This document shows positions 50,545-60,663 of a stretch of 64,000 nucleotides of DNA, piece by piece. The stretch's first letter is position 1; each line of letters opens with the position of its first letter. The DNA is taken from positions 1,860,001 through 1,924,000 of the forward strand of contig NZ_CP025624.1 of assembly GCF_002874965.1 (NCBI RefSeq), in the 5' to 3' direction. This stretch comes from Pseudomonas sp. NC02 (GTDB lineage Bacteria > Pseudomonadota > Gammaproteobacteria > Pseudomonadales > Pseudomonadaceae). The notes under the pieces were generated by a model. The model had not been told where the DNA came from and did not search any database. It saw nothing but the letters and a program-made list of their open reading frames with translations. A program made the translations under genes and the position numbers.

Positions 50545-51531
50545 TCACCGCCCCTCCAACAACTCCCCGGCCTTATCCAGCAACGCCAGCGGATCACTGG
50601 CCTTATGAATATCCACTGACAACAACTGCCGAAACTTCCGCGCCCCCGGGAAACCCGTCCCCAGCCCCAGTGCGTGGCGCGTGATGTGATGCATCGAGCC
50701 ACCTGTCGCCAGGTGTTCGGCTATATAAGGACGCAACTGCGCCAACGCCTCGGCGCGGGTGATCACTGGTGCCGTGCTGCCAAACAGCTGCTGATCCACC
50801 TCGGCCAGCAAATACGGATTGTGATAAGCCTCGCGGCCCAGCATCACGCCGTCGAAGGTCTGCAAATGCTCCTGGCACTGTTCGAGGGTCTTGATGCCGC
50901 CGTTGAGGATGATCTCCAGTTCAGGGAAATCCTGCTTCAACTGGGCGGCAACGTCGTAGCGCAAGGGCGGGATGTCCCGATTTTCCTTCGGTGACAGCCC
51001 TTCCAGAATGGCGATTCGCGCATGCACGGTAAAACTGGTGCAGCCCGCGTCCTTCACCTGGCCAACGAAATCGCACAGCTCGGCGTAACTGTCCCGGCCG
51101 TTGATGCCGATGCGGTGCTTAACCGTTACCGGGATCGAGACCGCGTCCTGCATCGCCTTTACGCAATCCGCCACCAACGCAGGGTGTGCCATCAGGATCG
51201 CGCCAATCATGTTGTTTTGCACCCGGTCGCTGGGGCAGCCGACGTTGAGGTTCACCTCGTCGTAGCCGGCGTCCTGGGCCATGCGGGCGCAGGCGGCCAG
51301 GTCAGCGGGGACGCTACCACCCAACTGCAAGGCGAGTGGATGCTCGGCCTCGTTGTGGCGCAGGAAACGTTCGTGGTCGCCGTGGAGGATTGCGCCGGTG
51401 GTGACCATCTCGGTGTAGAGGAGGGCGTTTTTGGACAGCAGGCGCAGGAAGTACCTGCAGTGCCTGTCAGTCCAATCCATCATCGGGGCGACGGAGAAGC
51501 GGCGGGAGAGTGGAGCGGTTTGTATGGGCAT
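50545..51531 (-). CDS. dusA: tRNA-dihydrouridine(20/20a) synthase DusA (5' end replaced by island)
   Basis: 328 residues. The FMN TIM barrel starts FSVAPMMDWTDRHCRYFLR, the catalytic Cys is in NVGCPSDRVQNNMIGAIL, and the DusA C-terminus MHHITRHALGLGTGFPGARK is intact. It reduces U20/U20a in tRNA. The first 19 residues (MPIQTAPLSRRFSVAPMMDW) come from the inserted island; the ancestral start survives at 60580-60663. So dusA remains expressed from island-borne upstream sequence that also copies the original leader. Confidence 0.93.
   Translation of the reverse strand: MPIQTAPLSRRFSVAPMMDWTDRHCRYFLRLLSKNALLYTEMVTTGAILHGDHERFLRHNEAEHPLALQLGGSVPADLAACARMAQDAGYDEVNLNVGCPSDRVQNNMIGAILMAHPALVADCVKAMQDAVSIPVTVKHRIGINGRDSYAELCDFVGQVKDAGCTSFTVHARIAILEGLSPKENRDIPPLRYDVAAQLKQDFPELEIILNGGIKTLEQCQEHLQTFDGVMLGREAYHNPYLLAEVDQQLFGSTAPVITRAEALAQLRPYIAEHLATGGSMHHITRHALGLGTGFPGARKFRQLLSVDIHKASDPLALLDKAGELLEGR
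51471..51486. repeat. attachment site, left junction (core copy)
   Basis: TCCAATCCATCATCGG, identical to 60594-60609. On the coding strand it spells the PMMDW codons of dusA, the usual target of dusA-type integrases. Similarity continues with mismatches for about 100 bp to the right. Confidence 0.88.
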
Positions 51532-51705
51532 TGGAGATCTGAGTCAACGAGGCGAATGGTGTGCAGTTTATCAGGGAAGCATCGCGGGTGTCGGGGAGGT
51601 GTGTGATGCGCTCCTGACCATGTCGCACGTAACGTTAACGCGTGTGAAATATGCCGAGGATCAGAAGCCGACCATTGCGTCATATATCGTGGTCTTACCC
51701 CGATA

Positions 51706-52101
51706 TCCGTTCGCCAGGTCTCCAGACGCTACTGGGTGACCTACATCGGGATCGATATCACCGGCACGGGTTCCGGCGTGGCGCAGCTGGTGAAGCAGTT
51801 CTTCCCGAACATCACCACGTTCAGCTACTCACCCGAAGTCAAAACCCGCCTGGTGCTGAAGGCTTATGACGTCATCAAAAACGGCCGTCTGGAATTCGAT
51901 GCAGGCTGGACGGATATGGCCCAGTCATTGATGGCTATCCGCAAAACAATCACCGCCTCCGGGCGCATGTTCACTTACACGGCCGGTCGCACAGACGAGA
52001 CGGGCCATGCCGACCTGGCGTGGGCGCTGTTCCACGCACTGCACAACGAACCCCTTGAAGGGCAGACCACGGCGAATACCGGATTTATGGAGTCCTACTG
52101 A
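51706..52101 (+). pseudogene. Phage terminase ATPase subunit (P2 gpP-like), C-terminal fragment
   Basis: About 130 codons matching the C-terminal nuclease part of P2-type large terminases (YIGIDITGTGSGVAQLVKQF, SYSPEVKTRLVLKAYDVI, GRTDETGHADLAWALFHAL). The N-terminal ATPase of some 450 residues is missing; homology fades near 51706, just inside the island edge. The frame continues upstream into non-phage sequence. Its stop overlaps the portal start. Confidence 0.75.
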
Positions 52102-53153
52102 TGAGCAGACGTAAGCGCGGAACCCAGCTGGCCACCGCTCAGCCACCCGTTGAAGGGGACTTGCTGCCGCCTGAGTCCGGGCCGGTTGAAGCGTTCACTT
52201 TCGGTGATCCCGCCCCCGTGCTGGATAGCCGGGAGATCCTCGACTACCTGGAGTGCTGGGCCAATGGGCGATGGTTTGAAACACCGATGTCCATGGACGG
52301 CCTGGCGAAAACGACCCGGGCCAGCGTTTACCTACAGTCGGGGCTGAACTTCAAGCGCAACATGCTCGCCCGCACGTTCGTTCCTCACCGGCTGCTAAGC
52401 CGTCAGGCCTTTGAGCAGTTCGCCCTGGACTGGCTCTGGTGTGGCAACTGCTATCTGGAAAAGCGCAACAACATGCTCCGCAACACCATGAGCCTGTTGC
52501 CCCCACTGGCGAAGTACATGCGCCGTGGTGTGGACATGGAGACCTATTACCAGGTGCGTGGCTGGAAGGACGAGCACGAGTTTGCCCCTGGTTCGATCTG
52601 CCACTTGCGCGAGGCCGATATCAACCAGGAGATCTACGGCCTGCCGGAGTGGCTGGCAGCGCTGCAAAGTGCGTTGCTCAACGAGAGCGCCACGCTGTTC
52701 CGGCGCAAGTACTACAACAACGGCAGTCACGCCGGTTTCATCCTGTACATGACCGACGCGGCGCAGAAGGAAGAGGACATCGACTCACTGCGCACCGCGC
52801 TGAAGAACTCGAAAGGGCCAGGCAACTTTCGAAATCTGTTCGTGTACGCGCCGGCCGGGAAGAAGGACGGTATTCAGCTCATCCCGGTGAGCGAAGTCGC
52901 GGCCAAGGACGAATTCAGCTCGATCAAAAACATCAGCCGTGACGATCTGCTCGCGGCGTTGCGCATTCCACCGCAGTTGATGGGCATCGTGCCGCAGAAC
53001 GCGGGCGGTTTTGGGTCGTTGCGGGAGGCTGCTGAGGTTTGGGCGGTCAACGAGCTGGAGCCGTTGCAGGCGAGGCTGGCCCAGGTCAACGAGTGGCTGG
53101 GTGAAGAGGTTGTCAGCTTCAAGGAGTTTGAGCTTCCTACGGGAGGAAAATAA
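52101..53153 (+). CDS. Phage portal protein (P2 gpQ-like)
   Basis: 350 residues, full-length compared with about 344 for P2 gpQ. PBSX/P2-type portal features: LDYLECWANGRWFETPMSMD, FVPHRLLSRQAFEQFALDW, GLPEWLAALQSALLNESATL, NISRDDLLAALRIPPQLMGI and QNAGGFGSLREAAEVW. It forms the ring for DNA entry in the capsid. The TGATG overlap with the terminase remnant preserves phage gene order (P then Q), but no scaffold, capsid or tail genes follow, so it has no obvious function here. Confidence 0.85.
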   Translation: MSRRKRGTQLATAQPPVEGDLLPPESGPVEAFTFGDPAPVLDSREILDYLECWANGRWFETPMSMDGLAKTTRASVYLQSGLNFKRNMLARTFVPHRLLSRQAFEQFALDWLWCGNCYLEKRNNMLRNTMSLLPPLAKYMRRGVDMETYYQVRGWKDEHEFAPGSICHLREADINQEIYGLPEWLAALQSALLNESATLFRRKYYNNGSHAGFILYMTDAAQKEEDIDSLRTALKNSKGPGNFRNLFVYAPAGKKDGIQLIPVSEVAAKDEFSSIKNISRDDLLAALRIPPQLMGIVPQNAGGFGSLREAAEVWAVNELEPLQARLAQVNEWLGEEVVSFKEFELPTGGK

Positions 53154-53354
53154 GCATGGCATAGTTCTAACGTGGGGTTGAGGTGGCATTGTTCGTTCGG
53201 AGTACCGACGAAGATAAGCCCAAAAGGTGAACAGTCAGAATTGTTTAGCAAAACCACGCGATAATGCAAAGGGGACTACTGCCGACAGGACGAAATTTTA
53301 GAGGTGCTCTTAAAATGCTATCTAAACGGCGCCAAAGTAGCGATTCTTGAAAAG

Positions 53355-53386
53355 TTAAATGGTCGGAATCTTCATTCGACCATTTA
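53355..53386. terminator. Bidirectional terminator before the immunity gene end
   Basis: TTAAATGGTCG ... CGACCATTTAA, an 11-bp perfect stem between the portal gene (plus) and the immunity gene (minus). The 53154-53354 stretch holds nothing else recognisable. Confidence 0.75.
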
Positions 53387-53395
53387 ATCTTCGAG

Positions 53396-53953
53396 TCATT
53401 GCTTTTGTTTTTGACGCTTCAATAATAGTTGTGGAATGAAATAGAACGCGGAGTAAGCAATGATCGGGAAACAATGAAAAACAAGTAGAATGCCGGAAGA
53501 AAATAGTGCGTAGGGAATAATGTGCCTACCTAAGAATCCCCATTTTTGAGTGAGAGTTCCTAGATCGGTTTCCTGCATGTAAAAAGCATAGATGGCAAAA
53601 AAAATAAAAGCAGTAATTGAAATTAATATTGCGGAGTATTTCGCGATAGTCATGCTTTCGTATTGGTCAGGGTCAATTATCATGGTTTTGCGAATTTTTA
53701 TAAAGGTTATAACGGAGAATAGTGGGCCGAAAATACTGATGTAGTTTGTGATTAGCTTGGAGTTAAATGGAGAGTTGGATGTCCAGAATCCCACAAGTCC
53801 AAGTAGTTTTTCATTAATGAAGGTGTCTAGCTCCAAATGAAAATGTGTTTCGGGACTTGTTGGTAGTAGAAATGCAATAATGAAGATTGGAATTATCGTG
53901 AGCACGATAAATGCATATGGCATTTCGATTAATTGTTTGGTTTTTTTGGTCAT
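53396..53953 (-). CDS. Membrane immunity protein for pore-forming bacteriocin
   Basis: 185 residues, AT-rich codons, about four hydrophobic segments (FIVLTIIPIFIIAFLLP, ITNYISIFGPLFSVITFI, YSAILISITAFIFFAIYAF, YALFSSGILLVFHCFPIIAY). It lies directly downstream of the pore-forming bacteriocin on the same strand, the classic immunity position for inner-membrane-acting colicins and S-type pyocins. Sequence alone does not place it in a named immunity family; the role is inferred from context and topology. Start at 53953 has no strong ribosome-binding site; M at 53923 is an alternative. Confidence 0.7.
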   Translation of the reverse strand: MTKKTKQLIEMPYAFIVLTIIPIFIIAFLLPTSPETHFHLELDTFINEKLLGLVGFWTSNSPFNSKLITNYISIFGPLFSVITFIKIRKTMIIDPDQYESMTIAKYSAILISITAFIFFAIYAFYMQETDLGTLTQKWGFLGRHIIPYALFSSGILLVFHCFPIIAYSAFYFIPQLLLKRQKQKQ

Positions 53954-53980
53954 TTGATTTGCATTCCGGGATCGTAAATA

Positions 53981-54017
53981 GATGGCGCCTTGCCAAATTT
54001 CCTAGCAAGGCGCCATC
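53981..54017. promoter_or_regulatory. Strong hairpin between bacteriocin and immunity genes
   Basis: GATGGCGCCTTGC / 11-base loop / GCAAGGCGCCATC, a 13-bp perfect stem starting four bases after the bacteriocin stop. The reverse strand lacks a long T-run after it, so it may stabilise RNA or partly terminate. Confidence 0.7.
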
Positions 54018-54020
54018 GTA

Positions 54021-55697
54021 TCAGTTAAGAACCAAGTTGTTGATTTTATCTACAGATTTAGCATTGAATAGTGACGCTATTGCAGCCATTAGAACTGCTA
54101 CAACTACCACTCCAATCGCTGTGCTACTCCATACAGGAGCCGTTAAGGCGAAGATTACGGCAAGCAAGGCACCTGCACCGATGCCTAGCGCCATGGCCTC
54201 AAGCTCCAGCATTAGCGGTTTCCAAGAGCCAGTTTCAAAACCAACTGCAGCCGCTTCTCGGACGGAGTTTGCTTGAGAAATGTAGCCTACAACACCAAAC
54301 GCCTTGCCTAGGCGAGTAACATTGTCCGCAAAAGTCGCTTTGTCTAAAGCTCTGAGCGCGTCAACGACCGCTTTTGTATCTTGTGCACTCAGCCTTGTAT
54401 TTGGATTGACTCTAACCTTTTCGAACGTTGTCATTGCATCATTGAAGCTTCGGATTTTACTGCCTGAGATGCTAGCCTGCATCTCGAGAGCAATATTACT
54501 CATGTTTGCGCCATACTTTTGGAGAATGCGTTCACCAGATGCTGCAGCAAAATTTACAGAGTCGATGTAATTTTGCTTTTGTTTCTCTTCTCGTTCTTTC
54601 GCTTCAGCCTCTCTTGCTCGCGCGGCCAAGTCTTTAAAGGCATTTGCCGTATCGGTTAGTTGTCGCACCGATTCTGAATGAAGAAGCGAATCATGATAGT
54701 CGGCCCAACGCTTCCCTAGATCAGTGTTTGCTTGCAATTCAACTAGTTTATGAAGAGCTTCCAGTTCTGGTTTGGACATTGGAGACTTAATGTGAGGGCT
54801 GTCACGGTTTACTGACTTATATGGTCCGATGGCTGCTGTTTCAATCTTGATCTTGGCTTCTATTGCAGTCAGGTAGTTTTGTAGCGCTTGCGAGTGTGTT
54901 GTACCTTCTAAAGGTGGTACGGACTTCACGATATGCTCTTGCAGAAAATACGGAAGTAGCTGAATTTGAAAGTCCTTTTCAGTATCAATGACAGATAGAC
55001 TATTTCCAACCCAAGACGCAGTTTGATCTAGCGCGGAGCCTGGAGCGAGTTTAGCTTGATCGATTTTTTTGGCTAGCAGCGGTAGTTGGTTCACCAAGAT
55101 GGTGTTTTCTAGCGAAATCCGCTTTAGTTCCAGGGCTGCTCTGTAAGCTGAATCAATCTCCGCAAGGGCTTCATTGAACTTTGCTGCATGCACACCTTCA
55201 TAGATCTTTCGAAATGGCAGGTCAACCATCAAGAATAGTGGGTTCAATCCGTAAAGAGCATGTGCTGCGGGCACTTTGGCTTGATACTCATCGGTTTTTG
55301 ATTTGATAACTTTAACAGTTGTTTCGAGATCCTTCTGAGCCGCGTTGATTGGGGAAAGTACGAGTCCACCTCGAGCCACAAATTTTTTTTGCTCGATTTC
55401 ATTTTTGACTGTTTCTGAAAGTTTGTTGAAAACTCCAGTATATTCTTCATCAATAACGATTTTCAGATACTTGTGTTCTCCTACAAAATCATCCCACATG
55501 AATGGGGTGAGTGGGTTGAGCTTACCTGAACCACTACCTTCCCCTCGACGGGGACCGTCATACAGTCCCCAAGCCACATTGCCCATATACATCGAAGTCA
55601 TCGTGGGTAGGTGGCCGGTGATGGGAATTGGACCCAGTAGATATGAGCTCGGACCAGTTTTGATGTGTGGGCCTAAGTACGTTCCAGTGCTAGACAT
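54021..55697 (-). CDS. Pore-forming S-type bacteriocin (pyocin S5/colicin Ia-like)
   Basis: 558 residues. The N-terminus is Gly/Pro/Thr-rich (PSSYLLGPIPITGHLPTMTS, RRGEGSGSGKLN), a long helical middle (residues 80-430) follows, and the last 190 residues match colicin Ia/Ib-type pore domains: YGANMSNIALEMQASISGSK, AFGVVGYISQANSVREA and the hydrophobic hairpin LGIGAGALLAVIFALTAPVW...VVVVAVLMAAIASLF. Such proteins enter related bacteria and depolarise the inner membrane. The start at 55697 has AAAGGGA upstream. Expression is likely SOS-induced (LexA box and promoter overlap). Confidence 0.85.
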   Translation of the reverse strand: MSSTGTYLGPHIKTGPSSYLLGPIPITGHLPTMTSMYMGNVAWGLYDGPRRGEGSGSGKLNPLTPFMWDDFVGEHKYLKIVIDEEYTGVFNKLSETVKNEIEQKKFVARGGLVLSPINAAQKDLETTVKVIKSKTDEYQAKVPAAHALYGLNPLFLMVDLPFRKIYEGVHAAKFNEALAEIDSAYRAALELKRISLENTILVNQLPLLAKKIDQAKLAPGSALDQTASWVGNSLSVIDTEKDFQIQLLPYFLQEHIVKSVPPLEGTTHSQALQNYLTAIEAKIKIETAAIGPYKSVNRDSPHIKSPMSKPELEALHKLVELQANTDLGKRWADYHDSLLHSESVRQLTDTANAFKDLAARAREAEAKEREEKQKQNYIDSVNFAAASGERILQKYGANMSNIALEMQASISGSKIRSFNDAMTTFEKVRVNPNTRLSAQDTKAVVDALRALDKATFADNVTRLGKAFGVVGYISQANSVREAAAVGFETGSWKPLMLELEAMALGIGAGALLAVIFALTAPVWSSTAIGVVVVAVLMAAIASLFNAKSVDKINNLVLN

Positions 55698-55757
55698 ATA
55701 AATCCCTTTAATTTGTTGATAGTGACTGTTGCTGCTTGGAAGTAAGCAGTCGCACGC

Positions 55758-55786
55758 ACTGTATGCATGTACAGTATTTATGGCAA
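55758..55786 (-). promoter_or_regulatory. Bacteriocin promoter overlapped by a LexA box
   Basis: On the reverse strand -35 TTGCCA (55786-55781), 17-bp spacer, -10 TACAGT (55763-55758). A perfect LexA box CTGT-ATGCATGT-ACAG (55759-55774) covers the -10 and spacer. It lies about 60 bp upstream of the bacteriocin start. Confidence 0.85.
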
Positions 55787-56688
55787 CATACAATTGATAA
55801 CCATTCGTATCAAAACATTTCAACCCGATAAGCTCGCTCGCACTTGGCGCGCGCCGTCGTCCCCCCACCACGCCTGCGGGCTAAATGAGTCGTTTTTTCT
55901 GCGCACCTGCGGATCACTCTCGGCGGCTCAGGCTGGGCGGTTGCTTGGCGTCTTGGAGGGAGCAGAAACCTGCGGAACCCTGCGAGGATGGAGGTTTTAC
56001 GCAACGCTTATAAGCACGCGCGATCTGCTGAATTAAGTAGGTGGCACGGGAAAAGGGTTAGTTTTTTTTCGAAGTGGAGGGGTGGGCTTGGACGGCCCGT
56101 ATTTGTTGGGGTTGAGGCCTAACTTTGATGGGTTAGGTTGGGTTAGGTTAGAGGTTATATTTTCGTAAGCTACTGTTTTTAAAGGAATTAATATACTGAA
56201 TATTTAACACTAATAAAGGTTAGGAAATAACCTTACCTAACCAAAAAGCTAACCTTGTGAACTCTTCGAAAAACCCTAATAAACAAGGCTTTCAGGGCAT
56301 CCAGCAAAAAACTAACCCTCCTAACCTCTTTCCCCTGGGTCAACATGAAAACGCGAGATGTGCCTAGGGCGGGGTTCTTTTGAAGCTGCGTGCTGCATTG
56401 CGCAGTACTCACGACCTTTACGTTCACGCGCCCGCACTCTCACTCAAACAGCGTCAGCTGTGGCGGTTACAGGGGATGTTGGGGTTGGGGCGACAGGCAC
56501 TAGCGATAAGCACCATGTGGATATGGTTTTGGCGGCCAGACCAAGGTTAATTCAGAGGGTGAGTGGTACGAGAGTGGCACATAAGACCAGGCTCCCGGGG
56601 GCTGGTTTCCGCCAAATACAAAAGCTCGTCGGAGCGTGTCTTGGTGTGGGGAACCATTGAACATAAGCAACGTTATTGGCAACACGAA
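55787..56688. other. Non-coding, degenerate island region
   Basis: Nearly 900 bp with only short unconvincing ORFs. 56126-56156 has GGTTAGGTTGGGTTAGGTTA, and further CTAACC/GGTTAG copies lie near 56218, 56236, 56250, 56312 and 56321, flanking a very AT-rich stretch (56156-56217). The short reverse ORFs at 55810-56004, 56233-56427 and 56500-56685 have no clear start signals; they may be decayed phage sequence. Confidence 0.5.
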
Positions 56689-56883
56689 CTAGCCGACTCG
56701 TGGGGCATCCGGCTTACCGAATTCCTCGTACGTCATCTCACCCAGGTAGGACAAGCTGCTCAGAATTGCATTGGGTTCAGCCCCCGCTATCTTTCTAGCG
56801 GCCACGATCATCGGATAGGGAAACTTGGACTCTACCAGCCCAACAAGGCCGGACTTGTATACGCACTTCTGTTGATTACTCAT
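56689..56883 (-). CDS. Small putative phage protein
   Basis: 64 residues, MSNQQKCVYKSGLVGLVESK..., with SKFPYPMIVAARKIAGAEPN and YLGEMTYEEFGKP. Compact and well balanced in composition, so probably a real product; it feels like the short uncharacterised proteins of Pseudomonas P2-like phages, but I cannot name a family. No good ribosome-binding site is seen, and a 12-codon extension to 56919 runs into a terminator. Confidence 0.4.
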   Translation of the reverse strand: MSNQQKCVYKSGLVGLVESKFPYPMIVAARKIAGAEPNAILSSLSYLGEMTYEEFGKPDAPRVG

Positions 56884-56919
56884 GAAAAGGCGGTGTGGCG
56901 CAATTAATGCTCTGTCCAT

Positions 56920-56944
56920 AAAAAAGCCTGCAAATTGCAGGCTT
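56920..56944 (-). terminator. Terminator of the ParA-HEPN operon
   Basis: Reverse strand AGCCTGCAA / T / TTGCAGGCTTTTTT, six bases after the HEPN stop. Confidence 0.88.
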
Positions 56945-56949
56945 AATAT

Positions 56950-57561
56950 TTATCGTGTTACTAATTTGGCTATTTCATTGCCACAGCGGTGCAAAAATTC
57001 AGTTAGCTCCTCACACTCTGCCTTAGTTATACTGAGTTTTTCATTTGTCAAAGGATCAATATCAGCTTCGTGGACGATTGTGTTTCGCCTGTCTGCGATC
57101 AATTTTAATGTGGTTCGAATGACGCTATCTGGCTGTGCCATTTTTTCAGAAATCTTTTGCCATTTTTGACCTTCATCCCAAATGTAGCTTAGTCCATCGG
57201 CCACCTTTATTGGATCCTGGTAGGAAACAATTTTTAGTTTTCGAAAAATGGCTTGTTCAAAAATGTGTTCCTTTGGGGGTATTGATGCAGTAATTAAGTC
57301 GCTGTGGATCTGGATTGAAATCGGTTCCGACAAGTACTTCGGAGTAGGAGGGCGAGCACCCGTGAAAATCTCTAGCATACCTATGCGCACTAGGTCATGA
57401 ATGAGCTTGTCGAATGCGCTGACTGCGTAGACTATTTGTGAACGCAGTAAGTCTTCAAAGGAAGCAGGTACAGTTACGGATGCAGTTAAGTAATCATAGA
57501 GCCCTCCCGCATGGCGAGCGCTCATGATATTTTCGTTAAAGAGAGCGAGGGCGTTACGCAT
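56950..57561 (-). CDS. HEPN-domain protein (RiboL-PSP-type), putative RNase
   Basis: 203 residues. The front half resembles RiboL-PSP HEPN domains (RSQIVYAVSAFDKLIHDLVR), and near residue 160 lies ADRRNTIVHEADID, the RN-x3-H (R-x4-6-H) motif that forms the RNase site in HEPN dimers. HEPN RNases occur in toxin-antitoxin and phage-defence systems. It overlaps the ParA-like gene by 8 bp, so the two products are probably made in a fixed ratio and act together. AT-rich like its neighbour. Confidence 0.75.
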   Translation of the reverse strand: MRNALALFNENIMSARHAGGLYDYLTASVTVPASFEDLLRSQIVYAVSAFDKLIHDLVRIGMLEIFTGARPPTPKYLSEPISIQIHSDLITASIPPKEHIFEQAIFRKLKIVSYQDPIKVADGLSYIWDEGQKWQKISEKMAQPDSVIRTTLKLIADRRNTIVHEADIDPLTNEKLSITKAECEELTEFLHRCGNEIAKLVTR

Positions 57562-58585
57562 GGGCTAACAAGCCCACAAGTTTGTCGGTGATATGTATGA
57601 AATGTTTATTAAATAATTCTCGCTTGGTTTGCAGCCCCGCGAGGACTGGCCCAGTCTCTGCAATATCTTCATCTGTTACCTCGAAGACGGGAACGCCGGC
57701 CTGGTGCGCCTTAGGAAGTAGCCCTTGGAAGTCCGGAACCTCAGCGAGACAGTACTGTGCTTCTATAAGTTCGGCACCGTACTCCTCAGGCGTGAAAACC
57801 ATACCGACACTAGCGATTGCGTCGTAGAAATTACCACTAAGAGATGTTTTTATTTCATCAATATTGTCTCGATAAGGTCTAGCAGCTTTACCGTTTCGAA
57901 TATTAAATCTTTGAATCAGGCTTCCGGAAAATTTTGGTACGCCAGGGAGGAGTGGGTAGGCTGATTCAGAAAAAAGTGGAACAGCCGTTTTTTTCCATTC
58001 AGCCCATCGAGGCAAAGTTGACCTTAATGTATTGATAGCCATAATGGAAAATGGGTCTGGATTGGTCGGAATTACGAAAGCGTGAGCAGAAAGGAAAAAG
58101 TTTTGATTGGTTGCACTTAAGCTAGGGTTAAGGTCAATTATGGTGTAATCAATTGAATACTTTTCCTCAGTCAATCGAAGCAGTTCTGAAAAAGCACCAG
58201 GCAAGTTTTGGAGCGTCGAGAGTGCGTTGTTAGAAGTTTGTGCAAACGTAAGGGATGCATCGTATTCTGATAAATTTGCATGCCCAGCTAAAAGGTACAG
58301 AGAAGGCGCTTTCTGAGGGCTGAAGCAATTCACAGCAGTGATTGGGTGAGGCTTGCCTTGGAATGCCATTGCTACGCCGTCTTTAATATTATGCAGGCGT
58401 GTTTGGTCTTCGAGATAATATTTTTCGAAATCATCCCCCAGTATTAGGCTCGTCAGGTTGCACTGTGCATCTGCGTCAACTACGAGTACTTTGTATTTTT
58501 TCGAAAGCATCCAGCCGATATTGTAAACAGTGGTGGTTTTGCTAACTCCGCCCTTGTGATTAAAAACAACAAGTCGTTTCGACAT
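57554..58585 (-). CDS. ParA-like deviant-Walker ATPase
   Basis: 343 residues. The deviant Walker A (FNHKGGVSKTTTVYN, residues 8-22) has the signature Lys; VLVVDADAQCNL (A') and YTIIDLNPSLSATN (Walker B) follow. The C-terminal third is unlike chromosomal ParA (AEVPDFQGLLPKAHQAGVPV...). No ParB gene or parS-like array is near. Instead, a HEPN gene overlaps its 3' end, so it may act as a sensor or switch for the HEPN RNase. AAGGGAC lies eight bases before the ATG. Confidence 0.8.
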   Translation of the reverse strand: MSKRLVVFNHKGGVSKTTTVYNIGWMLSKKYKVLVVDADAQCNLTSLILGDDFEKYYLEDQTRLHNIKDGVAMAFQGKPHPITAVNCFSPQKAPSLYLLAGHANLSEYDASLTFAQTSNNALSTLQNLPGAFSELLRLTEEKYSIDYTIIDLNPSLSATNQNFFLSAHAFVIPTNPDPFSIMAINTLRSTLPRWAEWKKTAVPLFSESAYPLLPGVPKFSGSLIQRFNIRNGKAARPYRDNIDEIKTSLSGNFYDAIASVGMVFTPEEYGAELIEAQYCLAEVPDFQGLLPKAHQAGVPVFEVTDEDIAETGPVLAGLQTKRELFNKHFIHITDKLVGLLAHA

Positions 58586-58862
58586 TTTTAGTCCCTTAAT
58601 AGTTGGTTTTACAAGATTTTCTATCTGGATTGAGATGGCTTCAGAGGTCAGATAGACGCTGATGCGGTGCCAGTCTAAGCGAGCTGAATCGCTCAGGAAA
58701 CGAAATTTTAGCTATTTGACCACCAAAAATTTTGCGCCAGCAGTGAGTATCCTCTCGCCATCAATATCGCCCTGATTCGTAAATCTGAAACATCGCAGCG
58801 GATCTGCGCAAAGCTGATGGGCTGACAGGAACGAAGAGCTGTCGTGCTTGGCGGGGGGGATA
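58586..58862. other. Upstream region of the ParA-HEPN operon
   Basis: No supported gene. It must hold the ParA-HEPN promoter; no site is convincing. A second decayed attachment site follows at 58863-58950. Confidence 0.5.
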
Positions 58863-58950
58863 GTACAAAGGTGGTACTAGTTATTCTACGGACGGCTACA
58901 GGTCACGGCTGACGGGGTCTCTAGAGTTAGACGTTCCAGTCCATCACCGC
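58863..58950. repeat. Decayed attachment site (third copy)
   Basis: GTACAAA-N2-TGGTAC (58863-58877) and TCCAGTCCATCACCGC (58935-58950) reproduce the arrangement GTACAAA-N2-TGGTAC (60522-60536) and TCCAATCCATCATCGG (60594-60609). The distance between start points is 72 bp in both. The core differs at three of 16 bases. Confidence 0.65.
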
Positions 58951-59098
58951 AGCGGCTTCTAATTCAAGCTCTCGTATCCGGCTGCAAGCGACCTTTTTTG
59001 TGGTCATTCACAGATCTTAGATTGCCCAGGGTTTTAACGTTGAAGCGAGCGGTCCGGGCCGCTTATGCGATCGGCTGTTGGACCGATTCACTGGTCCA

Positions 59099-59815
59099 TT
59101 AGACGCCGCAAACTGCTTTTCCCTCGGCAACGGTAAGCCAGCGCTTCTCGATGGCGATTGCTCGATGAAGAAGACGATGACAATTTGCGCATAGCAGAGC
59201 CATATCGGATAAGCGCGTAATTCGGGCACCTGTGCTCGCTAGTGGGACAAGGTGGTGGGCTTCAAAGTGAGCCTCCCTCAGCGCTTCATTTGAGGAAGGC
59301 GCAGGAGTAATACACATTTCGCAGAACAACCGCTCAGAATTACGTCGTGATGAAAGCAAGCGTTCTCGCAACTTTGGCTCACGCTCCCGCCGTGAGTGCA
59401 GTTCCGTGATGACACGCCCCTCAGTGAACTGGACGTCTTCAATTACTGGCTTTGCAGACTCAGATGCAACTACGCCAGCCCGAATTAGGTTGGCTAGAGA
59501 TTTGGTCTTCTTGGGTGATGATCCAAATTCCAGCCAAACCGCACGGTCTGTTTCGGAAACATTGCCCAACCCTTTACCGGTTGCGACTTGCTTCAGATTC
59601 TGCAGCTTAAAGGCTACACCATCGGGGTTCCGAAACGACTCCTTCCTTGATGCCTCTGCATGATACGGAAAACGACGAAGCATTCCGGAAAGCGCCTTCA
59701 CTCGCTCGTCCGAGCCGGAGGGGATTTTTCCATTCAAGTCGAAGTATAGGTCGAGCGCGAGAATCGTTTCATCGCGCGTCCAATTCGGGTTGCCGTGTCC
59801 GTGAGTACGAGCCAT
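59099..59815 (-). CDS. HNH endonuclease, McrA-like
   Basis: 238 residues. The N-terminal WTRDETILALDLYFDLNGKI, RFPYHAEASRKESFRNPDGV and LGNVSETDRAVWLEFG are typical of HNH restriction-type endonucleases. The C-terminal HNH site reads FCEMCITP...FEAHHLVPLAS...MALLCANCHRLLH, with the zinc cysteine pairs and catalytic His. Such enzymes often cut modified DNA (McrA-like), which is an inference here. No methylase is nearby. The start is ATG 59815; the TTG five codons up is unlikely. Confidence 0.8.
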   Translation of the reverse strand: MARTHGHGNPNWTRDETILALDLYFDLNGKIPSGSDERVKALSGMLRRFPYHAEASRKESFRNPDGVAFKLQNLKQVATGKGLGNVSETDRAVWLEFGSSPKKTKSLANLIRAGVVASESAKPVIEDVQFTEGRVITELHSRREREPKLRERLLSSRRNSERLFCEMCITPAPSSNEALREAHFEAHHLVPLASTGARITRLSDMALLCANCHRLLHRAIAIEKRWLTVAEGKAVCGV

Positions 59816-59895
59816 GACTAGGTTGTCCAATTTAGAGGTAACCGGCTGACGTTAGGCCTGCGGATGCCGGCGTAACTTACGCATGGACCGACATG

Positions 59896-60375
59896 TTAGA
59901 CAGTATTGCGCCTGGTTCCTACCTTTGGAAGCTTGGTCCTTCCCTTCAGATTCCAGATAAGGTGCTCCGCGGACATCGAGTTGCGGTTGATCAACTCCTC
60001 TTCGATGGCGAGACGCATAGAGTCCGGCTCCACTAGAATCGCAGTAATTCCGATTTCCGCCCCTGATTCGATTACAGCTCTAACTTCGAGCAATTTCGAT
60101 TGAGTCCTTTTTGACTTCTTGAAGAGGTGCTCCGCAATACGGGACCAACCCGACTTGAAGCTCCTCTGGCCGATGTACATCAGTTGCCAAGTTTTGCCCT
60201 CTTCTCGCTTCCACAGGGCGTAAATGTTAACTGGACTGGTCCCTAGCGAAGGTGGAAGCCGATTATTCTCTAGTTCGTGCCTGTCGGAGTAGCCGATGGG
60301 ACAAGGTTCTGCATCCACGAGGCTCTTCTGCGCTTCCGCGATCAGAGAGCTGATGTCTATTTTAAGTGTATTCAT
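59896..60375 (-). CDS. GIY-YIG-like nuclease-fold protein
   Basis: 159 residues. VNIYALWKREEGKTWQLMYIGQR matches the two short strands of the GIY-YIG fold (IYALW...YIGQ), followed by SRIAEHLFKK and, later, EEELINRN and IWNLKGR, equivalent to the conserved Arg/His, Glu and Asn. Whether it is an active nuclease is uncertain since the tyrosines are partly changed. It is 80 bp upstream of the HNH gene on the same strand, suggesting a joint role, probably restriction-like. Confidence 0.6.
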   Translation of the reverse strand: MNTLKIDISSLIAEAQKSLVDAEPCPIGYSDRHELENNRLPPSLGTSPVNIYALWKREEGKTWQLMYIGQRSFKSGWSRIAEHLFKKSKRTQSKLLEVRAVIESGAEIGITAILVEPDSMRLAIEEELINRNSMSAEHLIWNLKGRTKLPKVGTRRNTV

Positions 60376-60579
60376 TTCGTCTTACGCCTGAATTAAACCA
60401 CACTATAAAACACCGTAATCAAACGGCAAGGCCTGCCGCAAGCGATGACCACTTTTTGCCGATGTCTGTCATTTGTAAACGCAGTTAGCTATAGCGGAAA
60501 GTCGATTGAGAGGGCTTCGTGGTACAAAATTGGTACGGAGATAATAGATAACTGCTGCAAGCCTTTATTTTTAAGCTCT
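60376..60579. other. Right end of the island, non-coding
   Basis: No gene. Contains the GTACAAA-N2-TGGTAC element (60522-60536) 72 bp before the attachment core. A site like this next to the core would fit an integrase arm-binding or promoter position; that is a guess. Confidence 0.5.
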
Positions 60580-60663
60580 TTAGCGTAAGTCGATCCAATC
60601 CATCATCGGAGCAACGGAGAAGCGACGGGAGAACGATGGCGTTGGTGCTATAGGTGAGGACAT
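60580..60663 (-). pseudogene. Displaced 5' end of the original dusA
   Basis: Reverse strand from ATG 60661-60663: MSSPIAPTPSFSRRFSVAPM-MDWIDLR, then TAA. Residues 10-23 (SFSRRFSVAPMMDW) match the functional dusA, after which island sequence takes over and stops the frame. It marks the right junction and shows what the ancestral DusA start looked like. Confidence 0.85.
60594..60609. repeat. attachment site, right junction (core copy)
   Basis: TCCAATCCATCATCGG, identical to 51471-51486. Confidence 0.88.

Follow-up and report, generated by a model that had tools for sequence, protein, structure and literature searches.

A ParA-like ATPase and a predicted HEPN RNase form a near-obligate gene pair carried by phages, plasmids and bacterial genomes

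Why should a ParA-like ATPase with no ParB beside it be encoded together with a HEPN protein, and what would the two do jointly? The question arises from a locus in Pseudomonas sp. NC02, within a stretch of 64,000 nucleotides (NZ_CP025624.1, positions 1,860,001 to 1,924,000) that we call the window and to which coordinates refer unless stated otherwise. A preliminary description had proposed that the two genes, as a ParA switch gating a HEPN RNase, were a defence or addiction module. Our comparisons strongly support the view that they belong together, paired far beyond chance as a near-obligate unit. Phages, plasmids and bacteria of many phyla carry it as one unit, and distantly related ParAs lie next to other enzymes that are likely to be toxic; together this points to a phage-defence or addiction module of a poorly studied kind.

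The first gene of the pair (57554..58585, minus strand) encodes a ParA/Soj-like ATPase of 343 amino acids (aa). The second (56950..57561, minus strand) encodes the HEPN protein of 203 aa and starts 8 nucleotides (nt) within the ParA gene. A strong intrinsic terminator common to both genes was found 3′ of the HEPN gene, at 56924..56944 on the minus strand. It comprises a stem-loop of nine pairs, read from 56944 to 56924, and a T tail, with a fold z-score of −3.9. The open reading frames (ORFs) and the stem-loop thus agree with the overlapping operon, 8 bp overlap and common terminator that had been described.

The ATPase matches the Pfam family AAA_31 (4.4e-25). Its deviant Walker A motif, signature lysine included, is intact (FNHKGGVSKTT; K11 and K16), and the aspartates of the A′ and Walker B motifs are also in place (D37/D39 and D151). 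The HEPN protein matches HEPN_RiboL-PSP (PF18735; 4.7e-12, 46.6 bits against a curated cut-off of 28.4) and retains the RX4-6H catalytic motif as R159-N160-x3-H164; from its sequence, it is likely to be an RNase. The Walker A lysine and the RN-x3-H site, both of which the preliminary description had pointed out, are therefore whole. Confident structure predictions gave a clear Soj fold for the ATPase model and a HEPN-like helical fold for its partner. HepT chains were among the top structural matches of the modelled HEPN protein, and a comparison of its sequence with those in the PDB returned no significant match. In PHROGs, ParA falls into phrog_164 ('ParA-like partition protein', 7e-41) and HEPN into phrog_13503 (8e-64), for which no function is on record.

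How obligate the pairing is was determined from the side of either gene. Scanning genome_contigs with the HEPN alignment gave 92 relatives, and the best 80, corresponding to 79 loci, were kept. In 77 of these 79 loci, the HEPN gene was immediately preceded by a ParA match of the same orientation; in the two without a ParA match (L069 and L087), HEPN was located at the contig start. On viral contigs, ParA was directly upstream in six of six HEPN loci. HEPN homologues found mostly without the ATPase had been named beforehand as the sign of a chance neighbourhood; with 77 of 79 paired, the opposite was found, and the claim of a real two-gene module stands. One pair (L037) was cut by a contig end, and both genes were broken in three loci (L061, L081 and L085). 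Among 95 genomes, including that of the window, HEPN was present only in the window genome, apart from one distant match in another (G045).

The reverse searches started from ParA and are thus independent of HEPN. In 398 Pseudomonadota genomes, 26 matches passed 1e-40, and the loci covered about 1.5 kb on each side of a match, less at some contig ends. HEPN adjoined all four that scored at least 400 bits, and no HEPN was found beside the other 22, which scored 227 bits at most. A second sample of 321 genomes gave the same picture: HEPN adjoined all three matches of at least 476 bits and was not found by the other 11 (at most 187 bits). The window genome was part of both samples, so that the pair was seen in six distinct genomes. 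The ParA scan of viral sequences gave 132 relatives, and HEPN was present in 21 of the best 80 loci, some of which are near-copies. The genes overlapped in 75 of the 100 loci in which both gene ends were available, by exactly 8 nt in 43; for this count the starts nearest to an overlap were chosen, which favours overlap, and some phage pairs were counted twice or thrice.

The two genes share a history. In the ParA tree, 95 HEPN-paired ParAs fell into one clade of 96 rows (SH-aLRT support 99), in which only the long branch L125 is not HEPN-paired. The HEPN-less phage ParAs placed in this tree were all outside this clade except for that same L125. Its members come from Pseudomonadota, Cyanobacteriota, Bacteroidota, Bacillota, Actinomycetota, Acidobacteriota, Chloroflexota, Spirochaetota, Poribacteria and others. 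In a smaller tree, calculated by a quick method, the support of the HEPN clade was 82 and L088 was placed outside it. ParA and HEPN distances were correlated across 75 loci (Mantel r 0.89), a value that was reached in none of 2000 permutations. The functional residues were also kept. In HEPN, R159 was present in 76 of 76 sequences, N160 in 75 of 76 and H164 in 76 of 76; in ParA, K11 was conserved in 74 of 75, and K16 and D151 in 75 of 75. The 13 HEPN proteins that were reached via ParA, and are thus free of the search pattern, retained R159 in 13, N160 in 12 and H164 in 13 cases. A separate clade of HEPN-less ParAs, from P22-like and other phages, comprised L003, L006 and about 24 further rows, and the downstream genes of the P22-like solo ParAs included no constant partner.

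The pair was found in the filamentous phage Pf1, the ParA of which is 66% identical over 94% and the HEPN protein 53% over 86%. The Pf1 ParA is Orf317 ('similar to Soj'). The HEPN gene is the next ORF, which is not annotated in AY324828; its product of 175 aa is shorter at the C end and retains the motif. The filamentous phage WX-TY also carries the pair. Among 72,556 plasmid records, 13 had HEPN matches, all from Burkholderia (12 from B. glumae and one from B. arboris), and ParA was confirmed in the two that were checked.

In the window itself, the pair is cargo of a probable mobile element inserted at a putative dusA gene (50545-51531, an ORF call), named as dusA in the preliminary description. 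A 44-bp repeat within its 5′ end (51466..51509) recurs with 89% identity at 60589..60632. The two copies are probable att sites and would bound a 9.1-kb element (51466-60632), the scanned ORFs of which included no recognisable integrase. The element retains parts of a P2-like prophage, namely the C-terminal fragment of a terminase large subunit (GpP; 51736..52101, plus strand), the portal protein GpQ (52101..53153, plus strand) and cargo. GpQ is 73% identical to the portal proteins of Pseudomonas phage Dobby and of vB_PaeM-D14A and marks the cargo slot, and ParA-HEPN lies just past its gene. The pair has a G+C content of 44%, compared with 59% in the window. The gene upstream of ParA (59099..59830, minus strand) encodes an HNH endonuclease by family match, and the one beside it in the element (59896-60375, minus strand) a protein of 159 aa with no supported family match. 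The statement that the island holds other nuclease genes is supported for the HNH gene only. Further cargo is a gene for a protein with a colicin pore-forming domain (54021..55871, minus strand; PF01024, 4.6e-27). Behind it, at 53396-53953 on the minus strand, lies a gene for a small hydrophobic protein without a family match, which is perhaps the immunity gene of the colicin-domain protein. In phage Dobby, Q is followed by small hypothetical genes; in OQ658368, no gene is annotated between Q and attL.

The position past Q has a parallel in E. coli P2-like phages. According to Rousset et al. (2022; PMC9122126), the interval between gpA and gpQ is a hotspot of anti-phage genes, holds old and tin in P2 and is occupied in about a fourth of P2-like phages by a putative plasmid partitioning system; the word 'ParA' is absent from the main text. 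The cargo described here resembles old and tin in lying just past the portal gene Q.

Is the pair a known system? PADLOC-DB 2.0.0 contains no model that matches HEPN, and ParA matched only the P-loop stretch of PDC-M28B, weakly (1.2e-4). The earlier remark that the pair could not be named among established systems needs correction. Anantharaman et al. (2013; PMC3710099) described, as a 'less common gene dyad', a ParA/Soj-like ATPase together with a HEPN gene of the MAE_18760 family, and postulated a toxin-antitoxin system with the ATPase as the antitoxin. The idea of a ParA-HEPN toxin-antitoxin system is thus already in print, as a prediction. The window pair may be this dyad. Both consist of a ParA/Soj-like ATPase gene and a HEPN gene. 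The HEPN of the dyad belongs to the MAE_18760 family; that of the window is placed in PF18735 by Pfam, and a family of this name (RiboL-PSP) has a separate entry in the table of that paper ('operon with ParB'). Another candidate for the family of the dyad, PF18737 (HEPN_MAE_28990), was rejected; a ParA of the window type occurred within about 1.5 kb in none of 14 loci. The passages on the dyad in PMC3710099 neither survey the pairing nor mention a P2 or Pf1 context or partners of the SIR2 or RelA/SpoT kind. In the literature searched, which left most subscription papers and bioRxiv outside its scope, no functional study of the ParA-HEPN pair was found. Among characterised systems, MntA-HepT (HEPN-MNT) is similar in that a HEPN RNase is restrained by the protein that the adjacent gene encodes. 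Its antitoxin is a nucleotidyltransferase and not a ParA, however, and HepT chains have about 130 aa compared with 203 aa here.

What is new here is that some more distant ParAs stand head-to-tail with SIR2, RelA/SpoT or a third family of proteins. The two genome samples contained 33 lower-scoring ParAs, and 32 of them (21 of 22 and 11 of 11) were examined downstream. In five, the following gene belonged to an enzyme family or a recurrent family. At L201, ParA is followed with a 4-nt overlap by a SIR2_2 protein (8.9e-28), which in PADLOC also matches the models for LmuA, ThsA and Dsr. At L185 the partner is a RelA_SpoT protein (2.7e-14) and at L208 a protein with a RelA/SpoT domain, as judged from motifs; both are possible alarmone-synthetase toxins. 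At L183 and L212, ParA precedes a member of a family that we call FxDxLG...SDS after its motifs. Its members, of 224-244 aa, occur at these two loci, at L248 and at the phage loci L172 and L173. They gave no Pfam match where scanned and no match in the PDB. Any likeness to class III cyclases is one of a motif only. Two ParAs of the branch without partners (L213 and L216) precede genes for putative restriction or methylase proteins.

The ParAs of L185 and L201 were then used as queries, against 172 and 174 genomes, and yielded 12 loci, both queries included. Among these, L250, from the same bacterial family as the window, was a second case of ParA with SIR2_2 (6e-19; 4-nt overlap), and L248 had the FxDxLG...SDS partner. 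Eight of the 12 loci had no such partner; L246 and L251 end at or near ParA. Near the HEPN clade, the ParA branch of L112 and L114 is followed by a protein of 310 aa (P0241) with an RN-x-A-x-H site. This partner was found behind seven of seven full-length relatives of the branch, and the L114 copy is cut short. Relatives of P0241 numbered six in a protein search and none in the 398 genomes, where the search was run without a positive control. In a profile comparison, P0241 and the partners in L114 and L172 showed no relation to the HEPN alignment, so 'HEPN-like' can be said of P0241 only with regard to its RN-x-A-x-H site.

We lean, with modest confidence, towards a two-gene module in which ParA gates an RNase and which is carried as cargo by mobile elements. 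The steps suggested here are drawn from what is known of ParA and HEPN biology. An ATP-bound ParA dimer, probably on DNA, would bind HEPN and keep it off or ready. A signal of phage infection, most simply the invading DNA or a phage protein, would alter the nucleotide or DNA state of ParA. The HEPN RNase, freed or switched on, would then cut cellular RNA and stop growth, and the infected cell would yield no phage. Such a module would resemble a toxin-antitoxin system at rest and abortive infection under attack.

Several observations weigh against the gated module or its extension to other effectors. L026 combines a frameshifted ParA with an intact HEPN, counter to a strictly needed antitoxin, unless a sequencing error is responsible. 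At L175 (1378-2028), a distant PF18735 HEPN (3.6e-11) stands without ParA behind an integrase-like gene, the 3′ end of which it overlaps by 4 nt. These two loci weaken the case for a simple antitoxin role. Moreover, 59 of the best 80 of 132 phage ParA loci lack HEPN, and 27 of the 32 lower-scoring ParAs had no recognisable constant partner. In the quick tree, which contains a single SIR2 row, partner types are kept apart except for L088. The SIR2 and RelA/SpoT ParAs are placed outside the HEPN clade, together with 24 ParAs that lack a partner, and a deep branch splits them from the HEPN, FxDxLG-family and phage-solo ParAs. The tree therefore speaks against a single lineage of ParA gates. Finally, the cellular surroundings do not look like defence islands. 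We considered the 126 nearest of 237 neighbours called within 3 kb; these matched 135 Pfam and 81 PADLOC families, of each of which the 25 commonest were evaluated. The Pfam families included two DNA methylases, one type I restriction R subunit, six Uma2 proteins, two integrases and two transposases and were otherwise mostly metabolic or transport genes. The PADLOC models had two members each and were nearly all for DNA methylases. In this count, made without a control set, no defence-island enrichment was apparent among the families listed. The pair thus behaves as a free cassette and not as a fixed member of defence islands. The proposal of a defence or addiction module is accordingly favoured by context in part, namely by the prophage cargo slot, the filamentous phages, the plasmids and the SIR2 and RelA/SpoT partners of some ParAs, and not by the cellular neighbours.

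The pair could instead be a plain addiction module, with the ATPase as antitoxin and HEPN as toxin, that only stabilises its carrier element. Gene order and overlap, the presence on plasmids and phages, and the 2013 postulate (PMC3710099) would fit. So would the lesions, with HEPN broken and ParA intact in three loci (L067, L079 and L080) against one reverse case, but these counts are tiny and could reflect assembly errors. Many loci are on cellular contigs among mostly ordinary neighbours, however, and related ParAs stand beside SIR2 and RelA/SpoT proteins, partners that in our judgement are more typical of defence systems. ParA is also large and ATP-driven, unlike most known antitoxins. We regard this explanation as unlikely.

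Alternatively, ParA-HEPN might regulate prophage or host gene expression and thereby control the lysogeny of its element. In Pf1, where the annotation reads 'putative regulatory protein', and in WX-TY, the gene ahead of the pair matches a family of phage transcriptional regulators. In ST160, a P22-like ParA relative, annotated as a partition protein, follows a CI-like repressor gene, from which a single small gene separates it. Among 66 neighbours given for 20 phage loci (of 92 called), four matched integrase families and at least four repressor families. However, the pair also occurs in plasmids and in cellular loci, where adjoining phage genes are not the rule, and its catalytic motif is strictly kept. 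A regulatory role appears more doubtful still than plain addiction.

That the pair serves partition or positioning, with HEPN as the adaptor in place of ParB, is very improbable. As had been noted beforehand, neither ParB nor parS is near. The only ParB_N match of the genome is at 6,877,715 of the 6.89-Mb contig, far from the locus at 1.917 Mb, and the canonical parS consensus is absent across the window at up to three mismatches. We therefore rejected a ParABS system with a canonical parS. Upstream of ParA there is no repeat array, and six aligned upstream regions and a repeat search gave no convincing operator or centromere; a simple scan of the gene strand gave no sigma-70-like promoter. 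The conserved RNase motif has no known role in partition, and integrated elements should not need it. Compared with the Soj/ParA of chromosome partition, the ATPase is longer (343 aa), lacks a ParB partner and has a near-constant HEPN partner. That the genes are chance neighbours, for which nothing speaks but the distant ParA-less HEPN of L175, is refuted for practical purposes by the pairing counts, the single clade and the Mantel test.

The gated RNase module, our preferred reading, may be one form of something wider. Because some distant ParAs show the same arrangement with SIR2, RelA/SpoT or another protein, ParAs of the wider group may serve generally as sensors or gates on which effectors are possibly swappable, and such an exchange of effectors is the part that would be new. 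We propose only tentatively, and hold it to be possible sooner than probable, that these loci form a superfamily of phage-defence modules. ParA would be the sensor and gate, and its branches would have taken up a HEPN RNase, the RN-x-A-x-H protein, a RelA/SpoT-like protein, SIR2 or the FxDxLG...SDS protein as effectors, so that DNA-segregation machinery would have become an immune switch, one that senses foreign DNA and sets exchangeable killers free. The known business of ParA ATPases is to move DNA and organelles. Should one branch control an RNase, and others SIR2 proteins or alarmone synthetases, a partition switch would have been reused as a sensor of phages or plasmids. The pair is compact, the long-studied phage Pf1 carries it in its genome, and the proposal would, if true, give a function to phage HEPN and ParA genes that are now annotated as partition, regulatory or hypothetical.
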